This document shows positions 11,784 to 20,519 of a stretch of DNA of 64,000 bases, piece by piece. Positions within the stretch are counted from its first letter, which is position 1; each line of letters starts with the position of its first letter. The stretch is from assembly GCF_023897065.1 (NCBI RefSeq), contig NZ_JAMHIV010000029.1:1-64000 (forward strand), in the 5' to 3' direction. The position numbers and the translations under genes were made by a program. The notes under the pieces were generated by a model that saw only the letters and a list, made by a program, of their open reading frames with translations, ran no database searches and was not told where the DNA came from. This stretch comes from Crossiella sp. SN42 (GTDB lineage Bacteria; Actinomycetota; Actinomycetes; Mycobacteriales; Pseudonocardiaceae).

Positions 11784-11851
11784 AAAACCGGGCTAGGAGC
11801 AGCCTGGGTGCGAAGGGGGCTCAGTGTCAAGATGGCAGAGGTACGATTCGC

Positions 11852-11863
11852 TGTCACGTTTCA
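11852..11863. promoter_or_regulatory. Autoregulatory operator candidate before lacI
   Basis: TGTCACGTTTCA carries one intact TGAAACG half-site (read on the minus strand) and lies 16 bp before the GTG of the divergent lacI at 11880. The left half is degenerate. Confidence 0.45.
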
Positions 11864-11879
11864 AGCGGAGGAGCTGCTC

Positions 11880-12920
11880 GTGAAACCTGCCGTCGGCATC
11901 CGCGAGGTCGCGCGGCGCGCCGGCGTCTCGAACGCGACCGTCTCCAACGTGCTGAACCGGCCGGAGGTGGTCGCGCCCGCCACCCGGCTGCGGGTGCTGG
12001 CCGCGATCTCCGAGCTCGGCTTCGTGCGCAACGAGTCCGCGCGCCAGCTGCGCGCGGGCCGCAGCCGGGTCATCGCCTTCGTGGTGCTGGACGCGGCGAA
12101 CCCGTTCTTCACCGACGTGGCCCGCAGCGTGGAGGACACCGCGCGGGCGGCAGGCCTCGCGGTGTACCTGTGCAACAGCGCCACCGACGCAGGCCGCGAA
12201 CGCGAGTACCTGGAGCTGCTGCACGAACAGCGGGTCGAGGGCATCCTGATCACGCCGGTGGACGCCGACGCCGAGCGGTTCGCCGAGCTGCTGAGCCGGG
12301 GCACGCCGGTGGTGCTGGTCGACCGCGAGACCCAGGACGGCACGCGGTGCTCGGTGGCCGTGGACGACGTGCTCGGCGGCGAGCTGGCGATGACGCACCT
12401 GATCGAGACCGGCCACACCCGGATCGCGATGGTCGGCGGCCCGCTGTCCATCCAGCAGGTGCGCGACCGCCACCAGGGCGCGCTGCGGGCGCTGGCGCAG
12501 GCCGGTCTGCCGCCCGAGTCGCTGACCTTGTTGGAGACCAAGGGTTTGCGGGTGGCCGAAGGCCGCAGCGCGGGGGAGCGGCTGGTGGGGCTGCCGTCCG
12601 CGCGCCGTCCCACCGCCGCGTTCTGCGCCAACGACCTGCTCGCGCTCGGCCTGCTCCAGTCCATGACCCAGCAGGGCCTGCACGTGCCGGAGGATCTCGC
12701 CGTGGTGGGCTACGACGACATCGAGTTCGCCGCCGCCGCGGCCGTGCCGCTCACCTCGGTCCGCCAGCCGCGCGAACAACTCGGCCGCACCGCCGCGCAG
12801 CTCCTGCTGGAAGAGGCCGAGGGCGATCCGGACCACGTGCACCGGCACGTGAAGTTCCAGCCGGAGCTCGTGGTGCGCGCGTCGACCGCGGTGGGCAGGG
12901 GCCGGCGGCCGCGGTCCTAG
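11880..12920 (+). CDS. LacI-family regulator, probable rhamnose operon repressor
   Basis: 346-residue LacI protein with helix-turn-helix GIREVARRAGVSNATVSNVL and a sugar-binding effector domain (DAANPFFTDVARSVED; LLHEQRVEGILITPVD; VVGYDDIEFA). The GTG at 11880 follows GGAGGAG at 11867-11873 and places the helix-turn-helix at the N terminus; an upstream in-frame start at 11808 is less likely. It is divergent from rhaT, with TGAAACG operators on both sides of the 122-bp gap. Its stop codon is shared with the left end of a palindromic MITE (12918-13081). Confidence 0.9.
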   Translation: MKPAVGIREVARRAGVSNATVSNVLNRPEVVAPATRLRVLAAISELGFVRNESARQLRAGRSRVIAFVVLDAANPFFTDVARSVEDTARAAGLAVYLCNSATDAGREREYLELLHEQRVEGILITPVDADAERFAELLSRGTPVVLVDRETQDGTRCSVAVDDVLGGELAMTHLIETGHTRIAMVGGPLSIQQVRDRHQGALRALAQAGLPPESLTLLETKGLRVAEGRSAGERLVGLPSARRPTAAFCANDLLALGLLQSMTQQGLHVPEDLAVVGYDDIEFAAAAAVPLTSVRQPREQLGRTAAQLLLEEAEGDPDHVHRHVKFQPELVVRASTAVGRGRRPRS

Positions 12921-13081: not shown

Positions 13082-13221
13082 ACGGCGTCGAACATGCCGG
13101 TGCTGTGGTCGAACCGAGTCGAATCCGGCTCAGCCGGCGCATTGCTCGTTGACAGGGGCGAAACCGGCTGGCGACAGTCATCGTGATCGTGGTCCGCGAG
13201 TCCCCCTGCCGTGGAGAGACA

Positions 13222-14088
13222 ATGACATTCTTTCGAAAGCGACTCCTGCTGCCCTTGGCCGTCCTCATCACCCAGTTCACCTTGACGGCGGGCGCGGGCG
13301 ACGCCCTGGCCGCGCAAGCCGGACAGGACCGCGCGGCCGACTGCGCGCCCGCCGCCAGCACCGCCGCCGCGCCGAAGATCAAGGTCTGGCTGGCCGGTGA
13401 CTCCACAATGGCCAATCCGAACGGCAGCTGCCCGGCGGGCTGGGGCAGCCAGTTCGGCTCGTTGTTCACCGGCGATGCCACCGTGGTCAACAGCGCCGTC
13501 GGCGGGCGCAGTGTGCAGACCTGGCTGTACGAGTCGAATGTCAAGAACACCAAGGGTCCGGACGGTGAGTGCGTGGTCTCCCCGAAGACCTTCGCCAAGC
13601 GCTGGCTGGACATGCTCAACCCGGACACCGGCATGCGGGCGGGTGACTACCTGATCATCCAGTTCGGCATCAACGACGGCAGCGCGTCCTGTCCGCGGCA
13701 CGTCGGATCGGCCCGTTACCAGGAGCTGCTGTCCATGATGGCCAAGGCGGCCAAGGACCGCGGCGCGCACCCGGTGCTGCTGACCCCGGTCTCGGCCCTG
13801 CGGTGCCAGGGCGGCACCGCGGTCGCCAGCCGTGGTTTCCTCCGGGAGACCGCGGACGCGGCCACCCGCTCCGGGGCGCCGCTGATCGACCTGCACCGGC
13901 TGAGCTACACGCTGTACAACTCGCTGAAGTTCTGCCCGCACGACGGGAACTGGAACACCGGCCCGGTGGGCGCGTTCTTCTGCAACGACCACACCCACTT
14001 CGAGCGGGCCGGGGCGCTGCGGATCGCCGGCGTGGTGGCCAAGGCGTTGCGGGACCAGCGGATCGGGCTCGCCTCGTACCTGCGCTAG
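13222..14088 (+). CDS. Secreted rhamnogalacturonan acetylesterase-like SGNH hydrolase (CE12 type)
   Basis: 288-residue secreted SGNH hydrolase. A signal peptide covers about residues 1-32 (ends ALAA). Conserved blocks follow the CE12 order: LAGDSTMA (nucleophile Ser), AVGGRSVQTW (oxyanion Gly), FGINDGS (Asn) and DHTHFERAGA (Asp/His). The role would be to deacetylate rhamnogalacturonan I, freeing the rhamnose used by the upstream operon. The ATG at 13222 follows GGAGAG; an in-frame start at 13183 would bury the signal peptide. A strong hairpin follows the stop. Confidence 0.88.
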   Translation: MTFFRKRLLLPLAVLITQFTLTAGAGDALAAQAGQDRAADCAPAASTAAAPKIKVWLAGDSTMANPNGSCPAGWGSQFGSLFTGDATVVNSAVGGRSVQTWLYESNVKNTKGPDGECVVSPKTFAKRWLDMLNPDTGMRAGDYLIIQFGINDGSASCPRHVGSARYQELLSMMAKAAKDRGAHPVLLTPVSALRCQGGTAVASRGFLRETADAATRSGAPLIDLHRLSYTLYNSLKFCPHDGNWNTGPVGAFFCNDHTHFERAGALRIAGVVAKALRDQRIGLASYLR

Positions 14089-14141: not shown

Positions 14142-17100
14142 TCACCGTCCGGCCGTCAGCTCCGCGATCCGGAGGAAGCCGTGCCCGGTGCCCGGCGCGC
14201 GGCTGGTCAGGTCCAGCCGGATGCGGCTGGTGCGCACCGGGCTGAAGGTGATCCTGGTCGGCTGACCGGACGCGGTAGCCCACTCGATCCGGGCATTGCG
14301 CACCGGGACGAACGCGCGTCCGTCCCAATAGGACACAGCGATGCTCGCGGGCAGCGCGTGCGTGGCATCGGTGATGAACGAGGCCCGCACCGAGCCCGTC
14401 CGGCCGGTGTCCGAGGTGGACAGCGACACCCAGTCCTGCTGGTGCGCGCGGCTCACCTCAGGCAGCAGGGCGGTGGCGCGCTTGAGGTAGTAGTTGGACC
14501 AGGCGGTGGCCGGGTTGCCATCGAGCATCGCGGCCGGGAGCGTGTCCGCCCGGCCGGAGTAGCTCGCATCCGCCGCGGGCGCGGCCGCGACATCCGCCGG
14601 CGCGGCCGGGATTTCGGGTTCGGCGGCTCCGGCGCGGCCGCCGGTGGCCGCGACGGTCGCGGTTCCGTCGCGCAGGCCCGGCGCGCTGGCGGTCACCTGG
14701 ATGACCGGAGAGGTCTGTCCTGATCGGATGATGGCCAGCGCCTTGCCGTTGAACGCGGTTCGCGAGTTGGCCTGGTAGTTCTCCGCGCTCTCCTGACGCC
14801 CGTTGTCCAGCCCGGCAAGGCTGCCGCCGTTGACCCGGAAGGAGATCAGGTTGTCAGCCCCCGGTACGACCACCCCGGCCCGGTCGACGACCTCGGCGGT
14901 GACGAAGGTGTGCGACTTGCCATCGGCCTTGGTGGTCTTGCGGTCCGGGGTCAGCTTGATCGCATGCGGTGCGCCCGCGGTGCGGAGCTCATCCCTGGCA
15001 ACCTCAGAGCCGCCACGCTTGGCGACCGCGACCAGCTGTCCAGGCTGGAACGGCACCGACCACGTGAGGTGCAGCTTGCCCGCGCTGCCGTTGGGACTGG
15101 TGTAGCTGCCAGGGAACCGGCCAGTGGTGACGGTCTTGTCGTCCCCGGTCGCTTCGGTGGTCTCCAGGTAGCGGGTGCCATCAACGGTGGTCTTGGTGTC
15201 GAACTTGCGTTCTCCCAAGGACTTGCCGTTGAGGAACAGCTCCACGGTGTCGGCGTTGCTGTAGGCCCACACCGAGACCTGATCGCCCGGCTTGTGGTCG
15301 GTCCAGTTCATCGGCAGCAGGTGCACCATGGGTTCGGCGGACCACTGGCTGCGGAAGAGGTGGTAGAAGTCCTTGGCGAACCCGGCGGTGTCCACCGCGC
15401 CGAAGAACGAGGCCTTCACCGGGAACACGTTGTAGGGCGTGGGCTCGCCGAGGTAGTCGATGCCGGTCCACAGGAACTGCCCGGCGAACCACTTGCGGTC
15501 CCGGTCCTTCTTCAGCCCGTACTCACCGCTGTAGGTCCAGGTCTCCAGGTTGTTGTCATAGGAGGAGACGTTGCGACGCCCCGGCGTGAAGTTCTCCCCG
15601 GTGTTGAGCTGGTCCGGGTCCTGGTAGTAGCCGCGGGTGGAGGTGGAGGAGGAGGACTCGCTCTCGAAGAAGAACTTGTCCGGGTAGCGGGCGTGCAGCG
15701 CGTCGACCGAGGCCGCCGTGTTGTAGTTCAGGCCCATCCCGTCAAGCAGCTTCAGGATCTCGTCCTGCGGCGACCCGGCCGCGGGCACCCGGCGGTACTT
15801 GTCCGAGCCCATCACGATCGGCCGGGTGTTGTCCACCGCCCGCACGTCCGCGATGAGCCGCTTGGCGATCGGGACGCCGATCGCCGCGGTGGAGTCCGGG
15901 ATTTCGTTGCCGATGGACCACATCACCACAGACGGGGAGTTCTTGGCCGCGTGCACCATCTCGCGGATGTCGGCGCTGCTGTGCGCGTCGAAGAAGCGGC
16001 CGTAGTCGTACGGGGTCTTGGGGGTGCGCCAGGTGTCGAAGGCCTCGATCTGCAACAGCAGACCCATTTCCTCGCAGGCCTGGGTGAACTCCGGGGCGGG
16101 CGGGTTGTGCGAGGTGCGCACGGCGTTGACGCCCATGCTCTTCATGATCTGCAACTGCCGGACGATCGCGTCCTTGCTGATCGCGGAACCAAGGGCGCCC
16201 AGGTCGTGGTGCAGGTTGACGCCCTTGAACTTGGTCTCCTTGCCGTTGAGCGAGAAGCCGTTGTCCGGGTGGAAGGCGAAGTAGCGCACACCGGTGCGGG
16301 TGGACACCGCGTCCACGGTCTTCCCGCCCACCTTGACCTCGGTGTCCACTGTGTACAGATGCGGCTGCTCCACCGACCACAGCACCGGTTGCTCGATCCG
16401 CACATCGGTGCTCGCGGTGCGCGGCTGCGCGGCCAGCTCGGCCCGAGTGGTGCCCTGCCCGACGACCTTGCCGGTGGCGTCCTTGACCGTGGCGGTGATC
16501 TCGGCCTGAGCCGGGGAGTTCTCGCTCACCGCGCTGGTCTGCACGCGCATGGTGGCGAAGCCGGACTTGATCGTGTTCGCCAGATCGGGGGTCGTCACGG
16601 TCACGCCGTGGCGGGTGACGTGCACCGGGTCGGTGACGACCAGGCGGACGTCGCGGTAGATCCCGCTGCCGGAGTACCAGCGGCTGCTGGGGATCTGGTT
16701 GCGGGCCCGGACGCTGAGCACGTCGGGGGTGCCGTTGGTGTGGGCGTGCGGGGTGAGGTCGAGGGCGAAGCCGGTGTAGCCGTAGGGGTGGCGGCCGATG
16801 AGCTTGCCGTTGAGGTAGACCTCGGCGTCCATGTAGACACCGTCGAACTCGATGGCCACCTTCTTGCCCGCGACTGATGGTGGCAGGGTGAAGGTCTTGC
16901 GGTACCAGCCGAGCCCGCCGGGCAGGAAGGCGGTGCCCGCGGTGGTGTGCGCGTTCTGCACCGGGTTGAGCCCGATGCTCCAGTCGTGCGGCAGCCGCAC
17001 GTTCCGCCAGGACGGGTCACCCGCACCCGGCTGAGGAGCCTCCGCGCCGGTGGTGTTGACCAAGGAGAACTGCCAGCCGTCGGTGAAGTCGACGGTCCGC

Positions 17101-17225
17101 CCGGTGGGCTTGACCTGTTCCGCCGCAACGGGTCCGGCCGCCGCGGGAGAGCTGAGCAGCCCGGCCAGGACCGTGCAGCCGAGCAGCAGGCTCGACCATC
17201 GTCGTGCCCGTGGTTTCAACAACAT
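14142..17225 (-). CDS. Secreted beta-galactosidase, GH2 family, multidomain
   Basis: About 1027 residues. An N-terminal signal region (MLLKPRARRWSSLLLG to SSPAAAG) precedes a GH2 sugar-binding jelly roll (RLPHDWSIG; GLGWYRKTF), an immunoglobulin-like domain, and a TIM barrel with FKGVNLHHDLG, VNAVRTSHNPP, acid/base Glu in WSIGNEIP and nucleophile Glu in FFESESS. C-terminal beta domains (DUF4982-like, invasin/Ig-like, and an F5/8-like end) follow, consistent with an extracellular polysaccharide-acting enzyme. The start at 17225 begins the signal; ATG 17264 is an alternative 13 codons upstream. It lies 45 bp after the GH53 gene and probably finishes degradation of galactan oligomers. Confidence 0.88.
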   Translation of the reverse strand: MLLKPRARRWSSLLLGCTVLAGLLSSPAAAGPVAAEQVKPTGRTVDFTDGWQFSLVNTTGAEAPQPGAGDPSWRNVRLPHDWSIGLNPVQNAHTTAGTAFLPGGLGWYRKTFTLPPSVAGKKVAIEFDGVYMDAEVYLNGKLIGRHPYGYTGFALDLTPHAHTNGTPDVLSVRARNQIPSSRWYSGSGIYRDVRLVVTDPVHVTRHGVTVTTPDLANTIKSGFATMRVQTSAVSENSPAQAEITATVKDATGKVVGQGTTRAELAAQPRTASTDVRIEQPVLWSVEQPHLYTVDTEVKVGGKTVDAVSTRTGVRYFAFHPDNGFSLNGKETKFKGVNLHHDLGALGSAISKDAIVRQLQIMKSMGVNAVRTSHNPPAPEFTQACEEMGLLLQIEAFDTWRTPKTPYDYGRFFDAHSSADIREMVHAAKNSPSVVMWSIGNEIPDSTAAIGVPIAKRLIADVRAVDNTRPIVMGSDKYRRVPAAGSPQDEILKLLDGMGLNYNTAASVDALHARYPDKFFFESESSSSTSTRGYYQDPDQLNTGENFTPGRRNVSSYDNNLETWTYSGEYGLKKDRDRKWFAGQFLWTGIDYLGEPTPYNVFPVKASFFGAVDTAGFAKDFYHLFRSQWSAEPMVHLLPMNWTDHKPGDQVSVWAYSNADTVELFLNGKSLGERKFDTKTTVDGTRYLETTEATGDDKTVTTGRFPGSYTSPNGSAGKLHLTWSVPFQPGQLVAVAKRGGSEVARDELRTAGAPHAIKLTPDRKTTKADGKSHTFVTAEVVDRAGVVVPGADNLISFRVNGGSLAGLDNGRQESAENYQANSRTAFNGKALAIIRSGQTSPVIQVTASAPGLRDGTATVAATGGRAGAAEPEIPAAPADVAAAPAADASYSGRADTLPAAMLDGNPATAWSNYYLKRATALLPEVSRAHQQDWVSLSTSDTGRTGSVRASFITDATHALPASIAVSYWDGRAFVPVRNARIEWATASGQPTRITFSPVRTSRIRLDLTSRAPGTGHGFLRIAELTAGR

Positions 17226-17270
17226 CGCACCATCCCATGGTGATCTCTGCACTGATATCGACATCCGTGG

Positions 17271-18209
17271 TCATGCGTTGCGGAAGCCGTCCAGGGCCGC
17301 GGTGGGCCGCCGGGTGCTGGTCCAGGCGGTCATGTCGTAGCCGGTGAACGGCGGGTAGCCCTGCGGCTCCCAGAAGAAGGTGCCCAGGCCGCCAAAACCC
17401 TTGAGGCCGGTGATGAACCGCCGCAGCGAACCGCGGGCCTGGATGGAGTTGTGCACCGGCCCGCCGTGCTCGACCTGCATGACCGGCCGGCGCCAGTTGG
17501 CCTGGATGGTCCGCATGCTGTTCAGCGCGGCGGTGACCTCGCTGCCCTGGGCGTAGGAGGAAAGCCCGGTGACATCCCACCTGCCGCCGTTGTCGCGGTA
17601 GGCGTTGAGGAAGTTCGACACGCTGGCGAACTTCTGCGGCTGGGCGGCGTGCACCAGCACCGGGGTGTCCGGGAAGACCTGTTTGCACTCCCCGTACGCG
17701 GCGTTGAGCAGTCCGGTCATCTGGTCGGGCCGGTGGATGCCGCCGACCGGGTGGCAGAGGCCGTTGTTGGTCTCGTTGCCGATCTTCACCCAGCCCGGCG
17801 TCACCCCGGCGGACCTGAGCAGCCGCAACGAGCGGGAGACGTAGCCGCGCAGCGCGTCGCGCATCCGCTGGTAGGACATGCCCGTCCAGGCCCGTGGCGG
17901 CTGCTGGACGCCGACGGAGTTCCAGGTGTCGCCGAAGTGGAACCCGAGCAGGACCCGCAGGCCCGCCGCCTCGCAGCGGGCGGCCATCCGCACGGTCTCC
18001 TCGATACCGCAGTGCCCGTTGACCGGGTGGCTGACCGGGTCGACCCAGGTGCGCAGGCTGACCGCGGTGATGCCGTAGTCCTTGAGGATGGTGAACAGGT
18101 CCTGCCGCTGCCCGTGCCGGTTGTGCCAGTAGTAGCCGTTGGCCTCCATCTGCGGCATCCAGCTGATGTCCGCACCCTTGACGAACGGCGCGGCCGGTGT
18201 GTCGGCCAT
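17271..18209 (-). CDS. Arabinogalactan endo-beta-1,4-galactanase, GH53
   Basis: 312-residue TIM-barrel GH53 enzyme that cuts beta-1,4-galactan backbones. Key signatures are KGADISWMPQMEANG near the N terminus, the acid/base Glu in KIGNETNNG, and the nucleophile Glu in VMQVEHGGP; SLRTWVDP and GFHFGDTW are also family-typical. The ATG at 18209 follows a GGAGGG site. Unusually, no signal peptide is visible and the upstream gene ends only 15 bp before the start, leaving no room for one, so export is unexplained. It is co-transcribed with the serine hydrolase and the GH2 gene. Confidence 0.9.
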   Translation of the reverse strand: MADTPAAPFVKGADISWMPQMEANGYYWHNRHGQRQDLFTILKDYGITAVSLRTWVDPVSHPVNGHCGIEETVRMAARCEAAGLRVLLGFHFGDTWNSVGVQQPPRAWTGMSYQRMRDALRGYVSRSLRLLRSAGVTPGWVKIGNETNNGLCHPVGGIHRPDQMTGLLNAAYGECKQVFPDTPVLVHAAQPQKFASVSNFLNAYRDNGGRWDVTGLSSYAQGSEVTAALNSMRTIQANWRRPVMQVEHGGPVHNSIQARGSLRRFITGLKGFGGLGTFFWEPQGYPPFTGYDMTAWTSTRRPTAALDGFRNA

Positions 18210-18224
18210 GGCGGCGCCCTCCGG

Positions 18225-19142
18225 CTAGTCGCGGGCTCCGGGAGCCACGAGCGGACAGGTGCTGCGGTAGGCGGTGACGCCGGTCCGGTCCTTCAGCGGG
18301 CACAGGAACTGGTGGTATCGGGTGTCGTGGTCGGTGAAGCTCTTCAGCCACGGGATCACCAGCCGCATCTGCAGCGGGTTCGGCCGGGTCGGGAAGGCGT
18401 GCCCAGCCCCGGCGAACTCCAGGTAGGCCTTCTCCGTGCCCGCCGGGATCGCCCGGTACAGACCGTCCACATAGGACGGAGTGACGGTGCCGTCGCGCTG
18501 ACCGGCGATGACCATCGTGGGCACCCGGTCAGCGCTCGGCGGGCCGGAGGGCTTGAACGGCGCCAGCCCGACCGCGGCCTTCAGCGACGGACGTTGCCGC
18601 GCCGCGACGAGTGCCCCGCCACCGCCCATGGAGTGGCCCATCACCGCGAGGCGCTTGGCGTCGACCCGGCCGCGCACGGAGCTGCGCTGGGTCAGGTAGT
18701 CCAGCGCCGCCAGCAGCTGGGTGCCGCGCGCGGTGTCGTTGTCGTTGCGGCTGTTGGTGTCGATCCCGATGACGACGAACCCGAACGAGGCCAGCCAGTG
18801 CCCCATCCAGGCGCCTTCGGCCGCCCAGGTCGCGGTGTAGCCGGGCACGATCGCGATCGCGCCGAACGTGCCCTGTGTGGTGTCCGTCGGGTAGTAGATC
18901 TTCCCGCCGCCGAAGCCATTCCCGCGCGGGACGCTCAGCTCCGCGGTGGCGAAGGTGCCGCGGGAGGCGGCGACACTGGCTGAGGTCGGGTTCGGACCGC
19001 GCTGGTACGGGTTGTCCGCGGCCAAGGCCGGGACCGCGGCCACGCCGGAGGTGACGACGCCCAGGACGGCGGCGAAGACGGTCACCGCTCGTCGCAGCAG
19101 CGGGAGCCGGGATCGCTGGGGTTCAAGGCACGCTGGGGACAC
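18225..19142 (-). CDS. Secreted cutinase / PET-hydrolase-type serine esterase
   Basis: 305-residue secreted alpha/beta hydrolase resembling thermostable actinobacterial cutinases such as TfCut2. The signal peptide ends near residue 42 (ALAA), then family hallmarks follow: NPYQRGPNPT, GFGGGKIYYP, oxyanion GYTAT (Tyr102), GHSMGGGG (Ser171 and Met172), Asp217 in GQRDGTV, His248 in GAGHAF, and a C-terminal Cys281-Cys296 pair (FLCP...YRSTCP). The position of the conserved substrate-clamp Trp of TfCut2 is Phe196 here (APFKP). GTG at 19142 follows AAGAGG. It heads the galactan operon, so a natural substrate such as cutin or esterified cell-wall material is plausible. Confidence 0.88.
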   Translation of the reverse strand: MSPACLEPQRSRLPLLRRAVTVFAAVLGVVTSGVAAVPALAADNPYQRGPNPTSASVAASRGTFATAELSVPRGNGFGGGKIYYPTDTTQGTFGAIAIVPGYTATWAAEGAWMGHWLASFGFVVIGIDTNSRNDNDTARGTQLLAALDYLTQRSSVRGRVDAKRLAVMGHSMGGGGALVAARQRPSLKAAVGLAPFKPSGPPSADRVPTMVIAGQRDGTVTPSYVDGLYRAIPAGTEKAYLEFAGAGHAFPTRPNPLQMRLVIPWLKSFTDHDTRYHQFLCPLKDRTGVTAYRSTCPLVAPGARD

Positions 19143-19283: not shown

Positions 19284-19297
19284 GGAGAGCGCTTTCC
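19284..19297. promoter_or_regulatory. LacI-type operator candidate (AGCGCT core)
   Basis: GGAGAGCGCTTTCC is a nearly perfect palindrome 142 bp upstream of the cutinase start. It is one of three site types in the 336-bp gap 19143-19478, which holds no gene. Confidence 0.5.
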
Positions 19298-19356: not shown

Positions 19357-19372
19357 CTGTGAACGTGCACAG
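19357..19372. promoter_or_regulatory. LacI-type operator, first copy of a twin repeat
   Basis: CTGTGAACGTGCACAG is a near-palindrome repeated exactly at 19446-19461, 89 bp away. Both lie between the lacI stop (19479) and the cutinase start (19142), suiting repression of the cutinase-GH53-GH2 operon. Confidence 0.6.
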
Positions 19373-19445
19373 TCCGGGCTTGCAGGTGAACCGCTCCGAT
19401 GAAAGCTTATTCTTACGATTGTTTCAAGGGCGTGTCGGTTAGACT

Positions 19446-19461
19446 CTGTGAACGTGCACAG
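19446..19461. promoter_or_regulatory. LacI-type operator, second copy of a twin repeat
   Basis: Identical 16-mer to 19357-19372. The spacing of 89 bp is about 8.5 helical turns, so the sites are roughly on opposite faces; looping or independent promoters are both possible. Confidence 0.6.
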
Positions 19462-19478: not shown

Positions 19479-20519
19479 TCAAGCCGACTCGCGGACGACC
19501 AGCTCGGTGGGCAGGATGACCGTGGCCGGTCCCTCACCGTTGATCTCGGCCAGCAGCTGGCGCACCATCATCGCGCTGATCCGGTCCCACGGCTGCCGGA
19601 TCGTGGTCAGCGGGGGCTGGGTGGTGACGGCGACCGAGGAGTCGTCGAAACCACCGACCGCGATGTCCTCGGGCACGCGCAGGCCGGCCCGCTCGATCGC
19701 GGCCAGCGCGCCCGCCGCCATCAGGTCCGAGGCGACGAACACCGCGTCGAGGTCCGGTGCCGCGGCCAGCAGTTCGCGCATGCGGGCCTCGCCACTGGCC
19801 CGGCTGTAGTCGCCGACCGCGACCAGCCGCTGGTCATGGGCGATGCCGTGCTCGGCGAGCAGTTCGCGGTAGCCGTGCAGCCGGTCCAGGCCGCCGGGGG
19901 TGTCCTGCGGACCGGCGATGGTCGCGACGCGCTTGCGGCCGGAGTCGAGCAGGTGGCGCACCATGGTCCTGGCGCCTTCGCGGTCGTCGGAGGCGACGTA
20001 GGACAGCGCGCCGCGCTCGCCGAGTGGCTTGCCGCAGCAGACGAAGGGCAGGTTGGCCTGCCGGAGGTGGTCGATCATCGGGTTGCCGCGGTGTGAGGAG
20101 ACCAGCAGCACGCCGTCGACGTGGTGCGCGGACAGGAAGGGCGCGATCCGGCGGCGCTCGTCCGCGGTGCCCGCGGTGATCAGGATGAGCGGCAGGTCGT
20201 GCTCGGCCAGCGCCGTGGTGCAGGCGCGCAGCAGGGTGGTGAAGTTGGGGTCCTCGAAGAACCGGTCCTGGGTCTCGGAGAGCAGGAAGGCCACCGAGCC
20301 CGCGCGCTGGGTGACCAGGCTGCGTGCGGCGCGGTTGACCACGTAGCCGAGTTTGCGGATCGCGGTGGTGACGGCTTCCTGGGCGGCTGGGCTGACGTTG
20401 TGGCCGCCCTGCAGGACACGGGAGACGGTGCCGCGGGAGACACCGGCGTGCGCGGCCACGTCGTGGATGGTCGGCGGGCGTGCCGCTCGTGCTCGCCGTC
20501 GTGGCGCGGTGTCGGTCAT
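19479..20519 (-). CDS. LacI-family transcriptional regulator
   Basis: 346-residue regulator with helix-turn-helix TIHDVAAHAGVSRGTVSRVL (about residues 17-36) and an effector domain (FLLSETQDRFFEDPNF; HHVDGVLLVSSHRG; FVASDLMAAGAL; GGFDDSSVAVTTQPPLTTIRQP). It lies upstream of the cutinase-GH53-GH2 operon on the same strand, separated by a gap carrying three LacI-type sites, and is the likely local controller. It closely resembles the LacI protein at 28870-29889 in the effector domain. Confidence 0.88.
   Translation of the reverse strand: MTDTAPRRRARAARPPTIHDVAAHAGVSRGTVSRVLQGGHNVSPAAQEAVTTAIRKLGYVVNRAARSLVTQRAGSVAFLLSETQDRFFEDPNFTTLLRACTTALAEHDLPLILITAGTADERRRIAPFLSAHHVDGVLLVSSHRGNPMIDHLRQANLPFVCCGKPLGERGALSYVASDDREGARTMVRHLLDSGRKRVATIAGPQDTPGGLDRLHGYRELLAEHGIAHDQRLVAVGDYSRASGEARMRELLAAAPDLDAVFVASDLMAAGALAAIERAGLRVPEDIAVGGFDDSSVAVTTQPPLTTIRQPWDRISAMMVRQLLAEINGEGPATVILPTELVVRESA

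Follow-up and report, generated by a model that had tools for sequence, protein, structure and literature searches.

The PET hydrolases TfCut2, LCC, Cut190 and PHL7 carry a Trp at the clamp position and no C-terminal CBM. Natural sequence clusters were reportedly defined by Seo et al. in 2025. Two PDB entries described as 'C3 cluster PET hydrolase', 9xv6 and 9xv7, were solved as catalytic domains and have Phe in place of that Trp. In Norton-Baker et al. 2025 (PMC12455559) the PET hydrolases that bear a CBM13 group together as one branch of the PETase tree, and cutin/suberin cocktails are proposed for them; a 2026 review (PMC12976661) calls the genomic context of PET-active enzymes underexplored.

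The enzyme described here is a PETase-family (PF12740) esterase of 305 aa, predicted to be secreted and encoded from a GTG start at 18225..19142 on the minus strand of a 64,000-nucleotide stretch of the soil bacterium Crossiella sp. SN42 (contig NZ_JAMHIV010000029.1, positions 1 to 64,000; hereafter the window). It resembles TfCut2, LCC, Cut190 and PHL7 in fold (TM ~0.91-0.95), catalytic triad and Cys pair, but shares only ~50% identity with them and lacks their Trp. It adds a further member to a branch already known, that of 9xv6 and 9xv7 (~75-76% identity over the mature domain, Phe in the same place); DP043 (PDB 9o9w; 63-64% identity) has Tyr at this position and likewise no Trp. Over 258 residues the 9xv6 protein matches an enzyme of Allorhizocola rhizosphaerae (L044) at 100% identity, and the native gene of that enzyme encodes a C-terminal extension (CBM35/CBM6-like by eye) that the window protein lacks. 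In that species the gene lies directly before a GH53 gene, with a LacI gene adjoining too (L044 228-2712). Unlike the CBM13-bearing enzymes of PMC12455559, the window protein and its paralogue of 88% identity have no C-terminal domain.

The family assignment rests on a Pfam match to PF12740, 'PET hydrolase-like' (295 bits against a cut-off of 28, E=5e-88, profile positions 2-263 of 263), on alignment and on a structural model; the score against the NCBIfam BHET hydrolase model was 339 bits, below its 520-bit cut-off. An earlier note on this DNA had listed polyester hydrolase hallmarks (GYTAT, GHSMGGGG, an Asp/His pair and C-terminal cysteines) and had proposed alignment with PET hydrolases and modelling of the fold. 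All of these hallmarks were found to be present and aligned with relatives, namely Tyr102 within GYTAT, the catalytic residues Ser171 (GHSMGGGG), Asp217 and His248, and the C-terminal Cys pair, which is predicted to form a disulfide; the signal peptide, judged by eye, ends at about residue 41. The AlphaFold2 model had a mean pLDDT of 95.2, with TM 0.96-0.97 to 9o9w and TM 0.91-0.95 to most PHL7, Cut190 and TfCut structures. Because of this pLDDT, and because the TM values to solved PET hydrolases overall were mostly 0.9-0.97, the cutinase-type fold is beyond doubt.

The earlier note had also singled out Phe196 (codon at 18555..18557, minus strand, by translation and alignment) as an exception to a conserved Trp. 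The Phe is indeed there, at the position that we take to be Trp155 of TfCut2, Trp190 of LCC and Trp185 of IsPETase, and the substrate-clamp Trp, a TfCut2/LCC-type trait, is accordingly absent. Among 103 relatives compared at this position, however, Trp was found in 57 and Phe, Tyr, Ala or His in the other 46, and in a tree computed with the position-196 column masked 45 of the 46 non-Trp sequences formed a single branch (99% SH-aLRT), so that what had been taken for a peculiarity is common to a whole branch with F/Y/A/H (45/103). The sole non-Trp sequence outside it (L027) is a long-branch sequence. With the same column masked, the window esterase was placed within this branch, sister to the TfCut2/LCC type, again with 99% SH-aLRT. 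By alignment and tree, PHENYLALANINE is a mark of the branch and Phe196 no peculiarity of the window enzyme. The members are actinobacterial, from Pseudonocardiaceae, Micromonosporaceae, Streptomycetaceae, Glycomycetaceae and others, and include all of the solved structures closest to the window esterase (9xv6, 9xv7, 9xv5 and 9o9w). C-terminal extensions of at least 70 aa occur in 32 of the 46 non-Trp proteins versus none of the 57 Trp proteins; the window esterase, having neither extension nor CBM, is unlike most of its branch in this respect. The only extension scanned, that of a 73% paralogue from the same genome, is a ricin-type lectin (Pfam), and others in the branch resemble ricin/CBM13, CBM2 or CBM35 by eye.

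The esterase was said in the earlier note to share an operon with GH53 and GH2 genes under LacI-type sites, and both parts of this description were borne out. A gene for a GH53 endo-beta-1,4-galactanase family protein (312 aa; 17271..18209, minus strand; Pfam) begins 15 nt beyond the stop codon of the esterase on the same strand, with its own GGAGG ribosome-binding site and with both of the expected catalytic Glu motifs (KIGNE and QVEHGG) present by eye. After a gap of 6 nt, and again on the same strand, follows a gene for a predicted secreted GH2 beta-galactosidase-like protein (1040 aa; 14142..17264, minus strand; Pfam), whose nearest NCBIfam models are the GalA/GalB beta-galactosidases, below their cut-offs. 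Directly upstream of the esterase lies a LacI-family repressor gene (346 aa; 19479..20519, minus strand; Pfam LacI and Peripla_BP_3), orthologues of which, at 81-88% identity, adjoin the same operators in Lentzea, Amycolatopsis and one same-genus genome. Convergent with the operon is a gene for a predicted secreted GDSL-type esterase (13183..14088, plus strand), which is outside the operon transcript and possibly associated with it in function. Near it, also downstream of the operon and pointing towards it, is a second gene of the LacI family by sequence similarity (11808-12920), and the two genes are kept in a near relative (L177 11205-13314).

The LacI-type sites are two exact copies of TGTGAACGTGCACA, one upstream of a putative promoter (operator 1, TGTGAACGTGCACA / TGTGCACGTTCACA, 19447..19460) and the other downstream of it (operator 2, 19358..19371), 89 bp from operator 1. 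The putative promoter, of the sigma-70 type, occupies 19399..19427 on the minus strand (TTGAAA at 19427-19422, 17 nt, TTTCAT at 19404-19399); it was not listed by a stricter consensus promoter scan, and promoter-like TTGAAA-N17-TTYYAT recurs between the operators at other operator-pair loci. Operators that flank a promoter would be the layout of a looping or blocking LacI-type repressor, and co-occurrence suggests that the adjacent LacI protein is the one that binds the TGTGAACGTGCACA operators. A possible second LacI-type palindrome, GGAGAGCGCTTTCC, lies in the esterase 5' leader (19284..19297) with one mismatch to GGAAAGCGCTTTCC, and may represent a second regulatory input. The near relative has a perfect GGAAAGCGCTTTCC in its esterase leader (L177 7052), and a copy with one mismatch precedes the 73% paralogue (L118 9154).

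The 9.72-Mb genome was searched with the pattern TGTGMACGTKCACA, allowing at most one mismatch, and 8 sites were obtained compared with 2 for the reversed pattern. Seven of the eight precede either a Phe-type esterase gene (all three such genes) or a GH53 gene. One pair is that of the window locus, where it is enclosed by the LacI and esterase genes; another stands upstream of the 88% esterase paralogue, after which comes GH2; the 73% paralogue has a single upstream site; and the last pair is upstream of a second GH53 gene, behind which come a GDSL gene (by DNA alignment), a PL11 gene for an RG-I lyase and GH43. The genome's Trp-type esterase (C65) had no such site upstream in this search. The neighbourhoods of both paralogues contain GH27, rhamnosidases, GH2, GH26, GH29 and GDSL esterases. 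The eighth operator-like site, the palindrome CGTGAACGTTCACA (C21:133794; L133 5930-6795), lies ~200 bp upstream of a gene whose secreted product matches C70 papain-like peptidases in Pfam and is unrelated to the other genes; this site was not accepted as part of the regulon.

Exact operator pairs separated by 66-84 nt were then sought in 390 genomes of the same family with no gene used as guide, which gave 18 pairs in 13 genomes, species that are not phylogenetically independent, and none for the reversed-pattern control. The first gene after the pair was GH53 in 8 cases, the esterase in 4, PL11 in 3, GH43 in 2 and a GDSL esterase in 1, members assigned by Pfam and tblastn with activities by family only; one of the four esterase-first loci is a remnant, and one of the three PL11-first loci comes after an N-terminal GH53 remnant. 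The esterase follows in 3 of the 8 loci headed by GH53. Exact paired operators (19358 and 19447) lie upstream of the transcription unit of the window esterase, which places it in the regulon so defined. In the pair-bearing genomes an operator was present within 1.5 kb upstream of 10 of 12 non-Trp esterases versus none of 20 Trp esterases. No exact pair was found in 395 other genomes sampled from the phylum, so the exact pair seems restricted to this family there; in Kribbella (L040) there is an operator pair with one mismatch. About two thirds of the non-Trp genes have no TGTGAACGTGCACA-type operator within 900 bp, and other lineages must therefore use other regulation. CebR cellulose operators (TGGGAGCGCTCCCA) were considered as a general regulator of the non-Trp branch and were unsupported (3/46). 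Behind intact operators, single regulon members have decayed repeatedly, with GH53 and esterase genes that are frameshifted, truncated or reduced to remnants (L050 9249-9451, L038 7430-7858, L184 1770-2021 and L149 1360-1515).

Gene neighbourhoods separate the two kinds of esterase in a similar way. Of the 46 non-Trp esterases 17 had a GH53 gene in the flank that was fetched, versus none of the 57 Trp esterases (Fisher p 5e-6, counting only the ~40 Trp loci with long flanks), p values being indicative only because related sequences are not independent. GH53 may stand after, before or divergent from the non-Trp esterase, and the tree shows 11 changes in this linkage, so the two genes do not travel as one frozen block. 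When the nearest genes (up to four) were tallied by Pfam at 39 loci of each kind, GDSL (13), LacI (11), CBM6 (11), GH53 (9) and PL11 (7) were prominent around the non-Trp genes, while none of these five was among the top 25 families around the Trp genes.

The GH53 gene of the window is itself unusual. Its product (start MADTPAAPFVKGAD) has no signal peptide, whereas Tat-type leaders are present on the GH53 proteins of relatives and on the second GH53 copy of the same genome, and since the leader is missing the window GH53 should be cytosolic. The esterase core ends 66 nt before the GH53 core in the window, versus 500-535 nt in Lentzea and the same-genus genome G003; what is missing from the 66-nt stretch is the esterase C-terminal domain and the GH53 Tat leader. 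The window GH53 begins where the mature N-terminus of its relatives would be, and the esterase and GH53 are in one frame, parted by one TAG and five codons (18209-18251). Read-through or fusion of the two is disfavoured by the GGAGG of GH53 and by the finding that the GH53 segment, counted from its ATG, is present or absent as one discrete block of 949 bp. This block is seen in comparison with the near relative, G237, which carries the same species label and has ~90% DNA identity to the window here: its operon consists of LacI, operators, esterase and GH2 in that order and has no GH53 (L177 8050-8100), and the difference is a clean block from the GH53 ATG to just beyond its stop. G237 gave no GH53 match at the search threshold, while the window genome has three; GH53 is also absent from its operator-led operon equivalent to the C1:42.6k locus of the window genome (L131 6400-9000 vs L142). 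Given the absence of a GH53 signal peptide, of an esterase CBM and of GH53 from the G237 operon, the GH53 link at the window locus is fragile. A viral origin was unsupported, since a search of viral contigs gave no match.

Fold family, catalytic residues, branch membership, operon layout and operator-defined regulon membership were computed here, and we consider it likely that the esterase is an auxiliary enzyme of the degradation of pectin rhamnogalacturonan-I (RG-I)/galactan, LacI-controlled and belonging to the non-Trp ('C3'/CBM13) branch. Predicted regulation and clade-wide gene context strongly support the role in plant cell-wall breakdown, as opposed to an isolated lipase, that the earlier note had put forward. 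Its galactan-degradation operon holds insofar as GH53 and GH2 are present, but an RG-I/galactan regulon fits better, with PL11, GH43, a GDSL esterase and rhamnosidases belonging too; the GH53 partner does adjoin the esterase, but here it has no secretion signal, and the near relative's version of the operon is without it. The account that we infer for repression, inducer, export and the target bond of the esterase is as follows. The adjacent LacI repressor would bind both promoter-flanking operators and shut the operon until an oligosaccharide freed from RG-I or galactan relieved the repression; the exported esterase, through its Ser-Asp-His chemistry, would then strip away ester-bound material by which RG-I is shielded or cross-linked, and the de-esterified RG-I would let GH53, PL11 and GH2 enzymes proceed.

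For the bond itself, a cutin/suberin-type polyester at the pectin boundary ranks first, as a real possibility that falls short of probable. A true cutinase or suberinase would share its regulation with pectin degradation for the sole reason that the bacterium encounters cuticle and pectin together, a plausible alternative that likewise falls short of probable: fold and triad match cutinases, and non-Trp/CBM13 members have PET activity, their discoverers putting forward cutin/suberin cocktails (PMC12455559). The regulon, however, contains RG-I enzymes with no other lipid-polymer genes seen there, and the Trp-type relatives of the same genomes lie outside it. A general lipase or esterase merely hitch-hiking in carbohydrate operons is improbable; PETase-family enzymes are promiscuous (PMC12455559) and the operon of the near relative lacks GH53, but the operator/neighbourhood linkage turns up again with other gene orders and at three distinct loci in a single genome, and Trp-type relatives do not show it.

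Feruloyl or other aromatic esters of RG-I side chains rank second among the bonds, as a tentative suggestion. The enzyme would then be an aromatic (feruloyl/coumaroyl) esterase acting on the galactan/arabinan side chains of RG-I, a feruloyl esterase on a PETase fold; we regard this as conceivable rather than probable. Ferulate is known on the RG-I side chains of some plants, the enzyme belongs to a galactan/RG-I regulon, its cleft comes from a family that accepts aromatic esters, and most relatives carry C-terminal extensions, one of them a lectin, although loss of the Trp clamp alters the aromatic-binding site. Some other bond is unlikely, and acetyl esters are less likely still, GDSL esterases being already in the regulon. 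Beyond the auxiliary role in RG-I/galactan degradation preferred for the window esterase, it may be, though we hold this to be doubtful, that the non-Trp branch as a whole is pectin de-esterifying, with an RG-I ester as natural target and recruitment into the LacI/paired-operator regulon, its PET activity being a side effect of pectin chemistry and not of cutin degradation.

The branch of the esterase is itself known, and what is new is the gene context: no report tying PETase-family enzymes to an RG-I/galactan regulon was found in the open-access literature searched. Operator and neighbourhood tie members of one branch, including an enzyme of solved structure, to a specific polysaccharide, point to a likely inducer class, co-acting enzymes and substrates to assay, and hint at the natural purpose of one branch of 'plastic-degrading' enzymes, and searching for paired operators offers a route to more of them. 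The set of Trp-type PET hydrolases differs from the window esterase in having no RG-I neighbourhood. PMC12455559 puts forward cutin/suberin, with no regulon or gene context given in its relevant section. The RhaR rhamnose regulon of Actinomycetales (PMC3870299) concerns rhamnose uptake and catabolism genes and 20-bp motifs, and no PETase-family gene appears in the relevant part of that work, but its combination of a LacI-family repressor with palindromic sites at sugar-polymer genes is the same as that found here.
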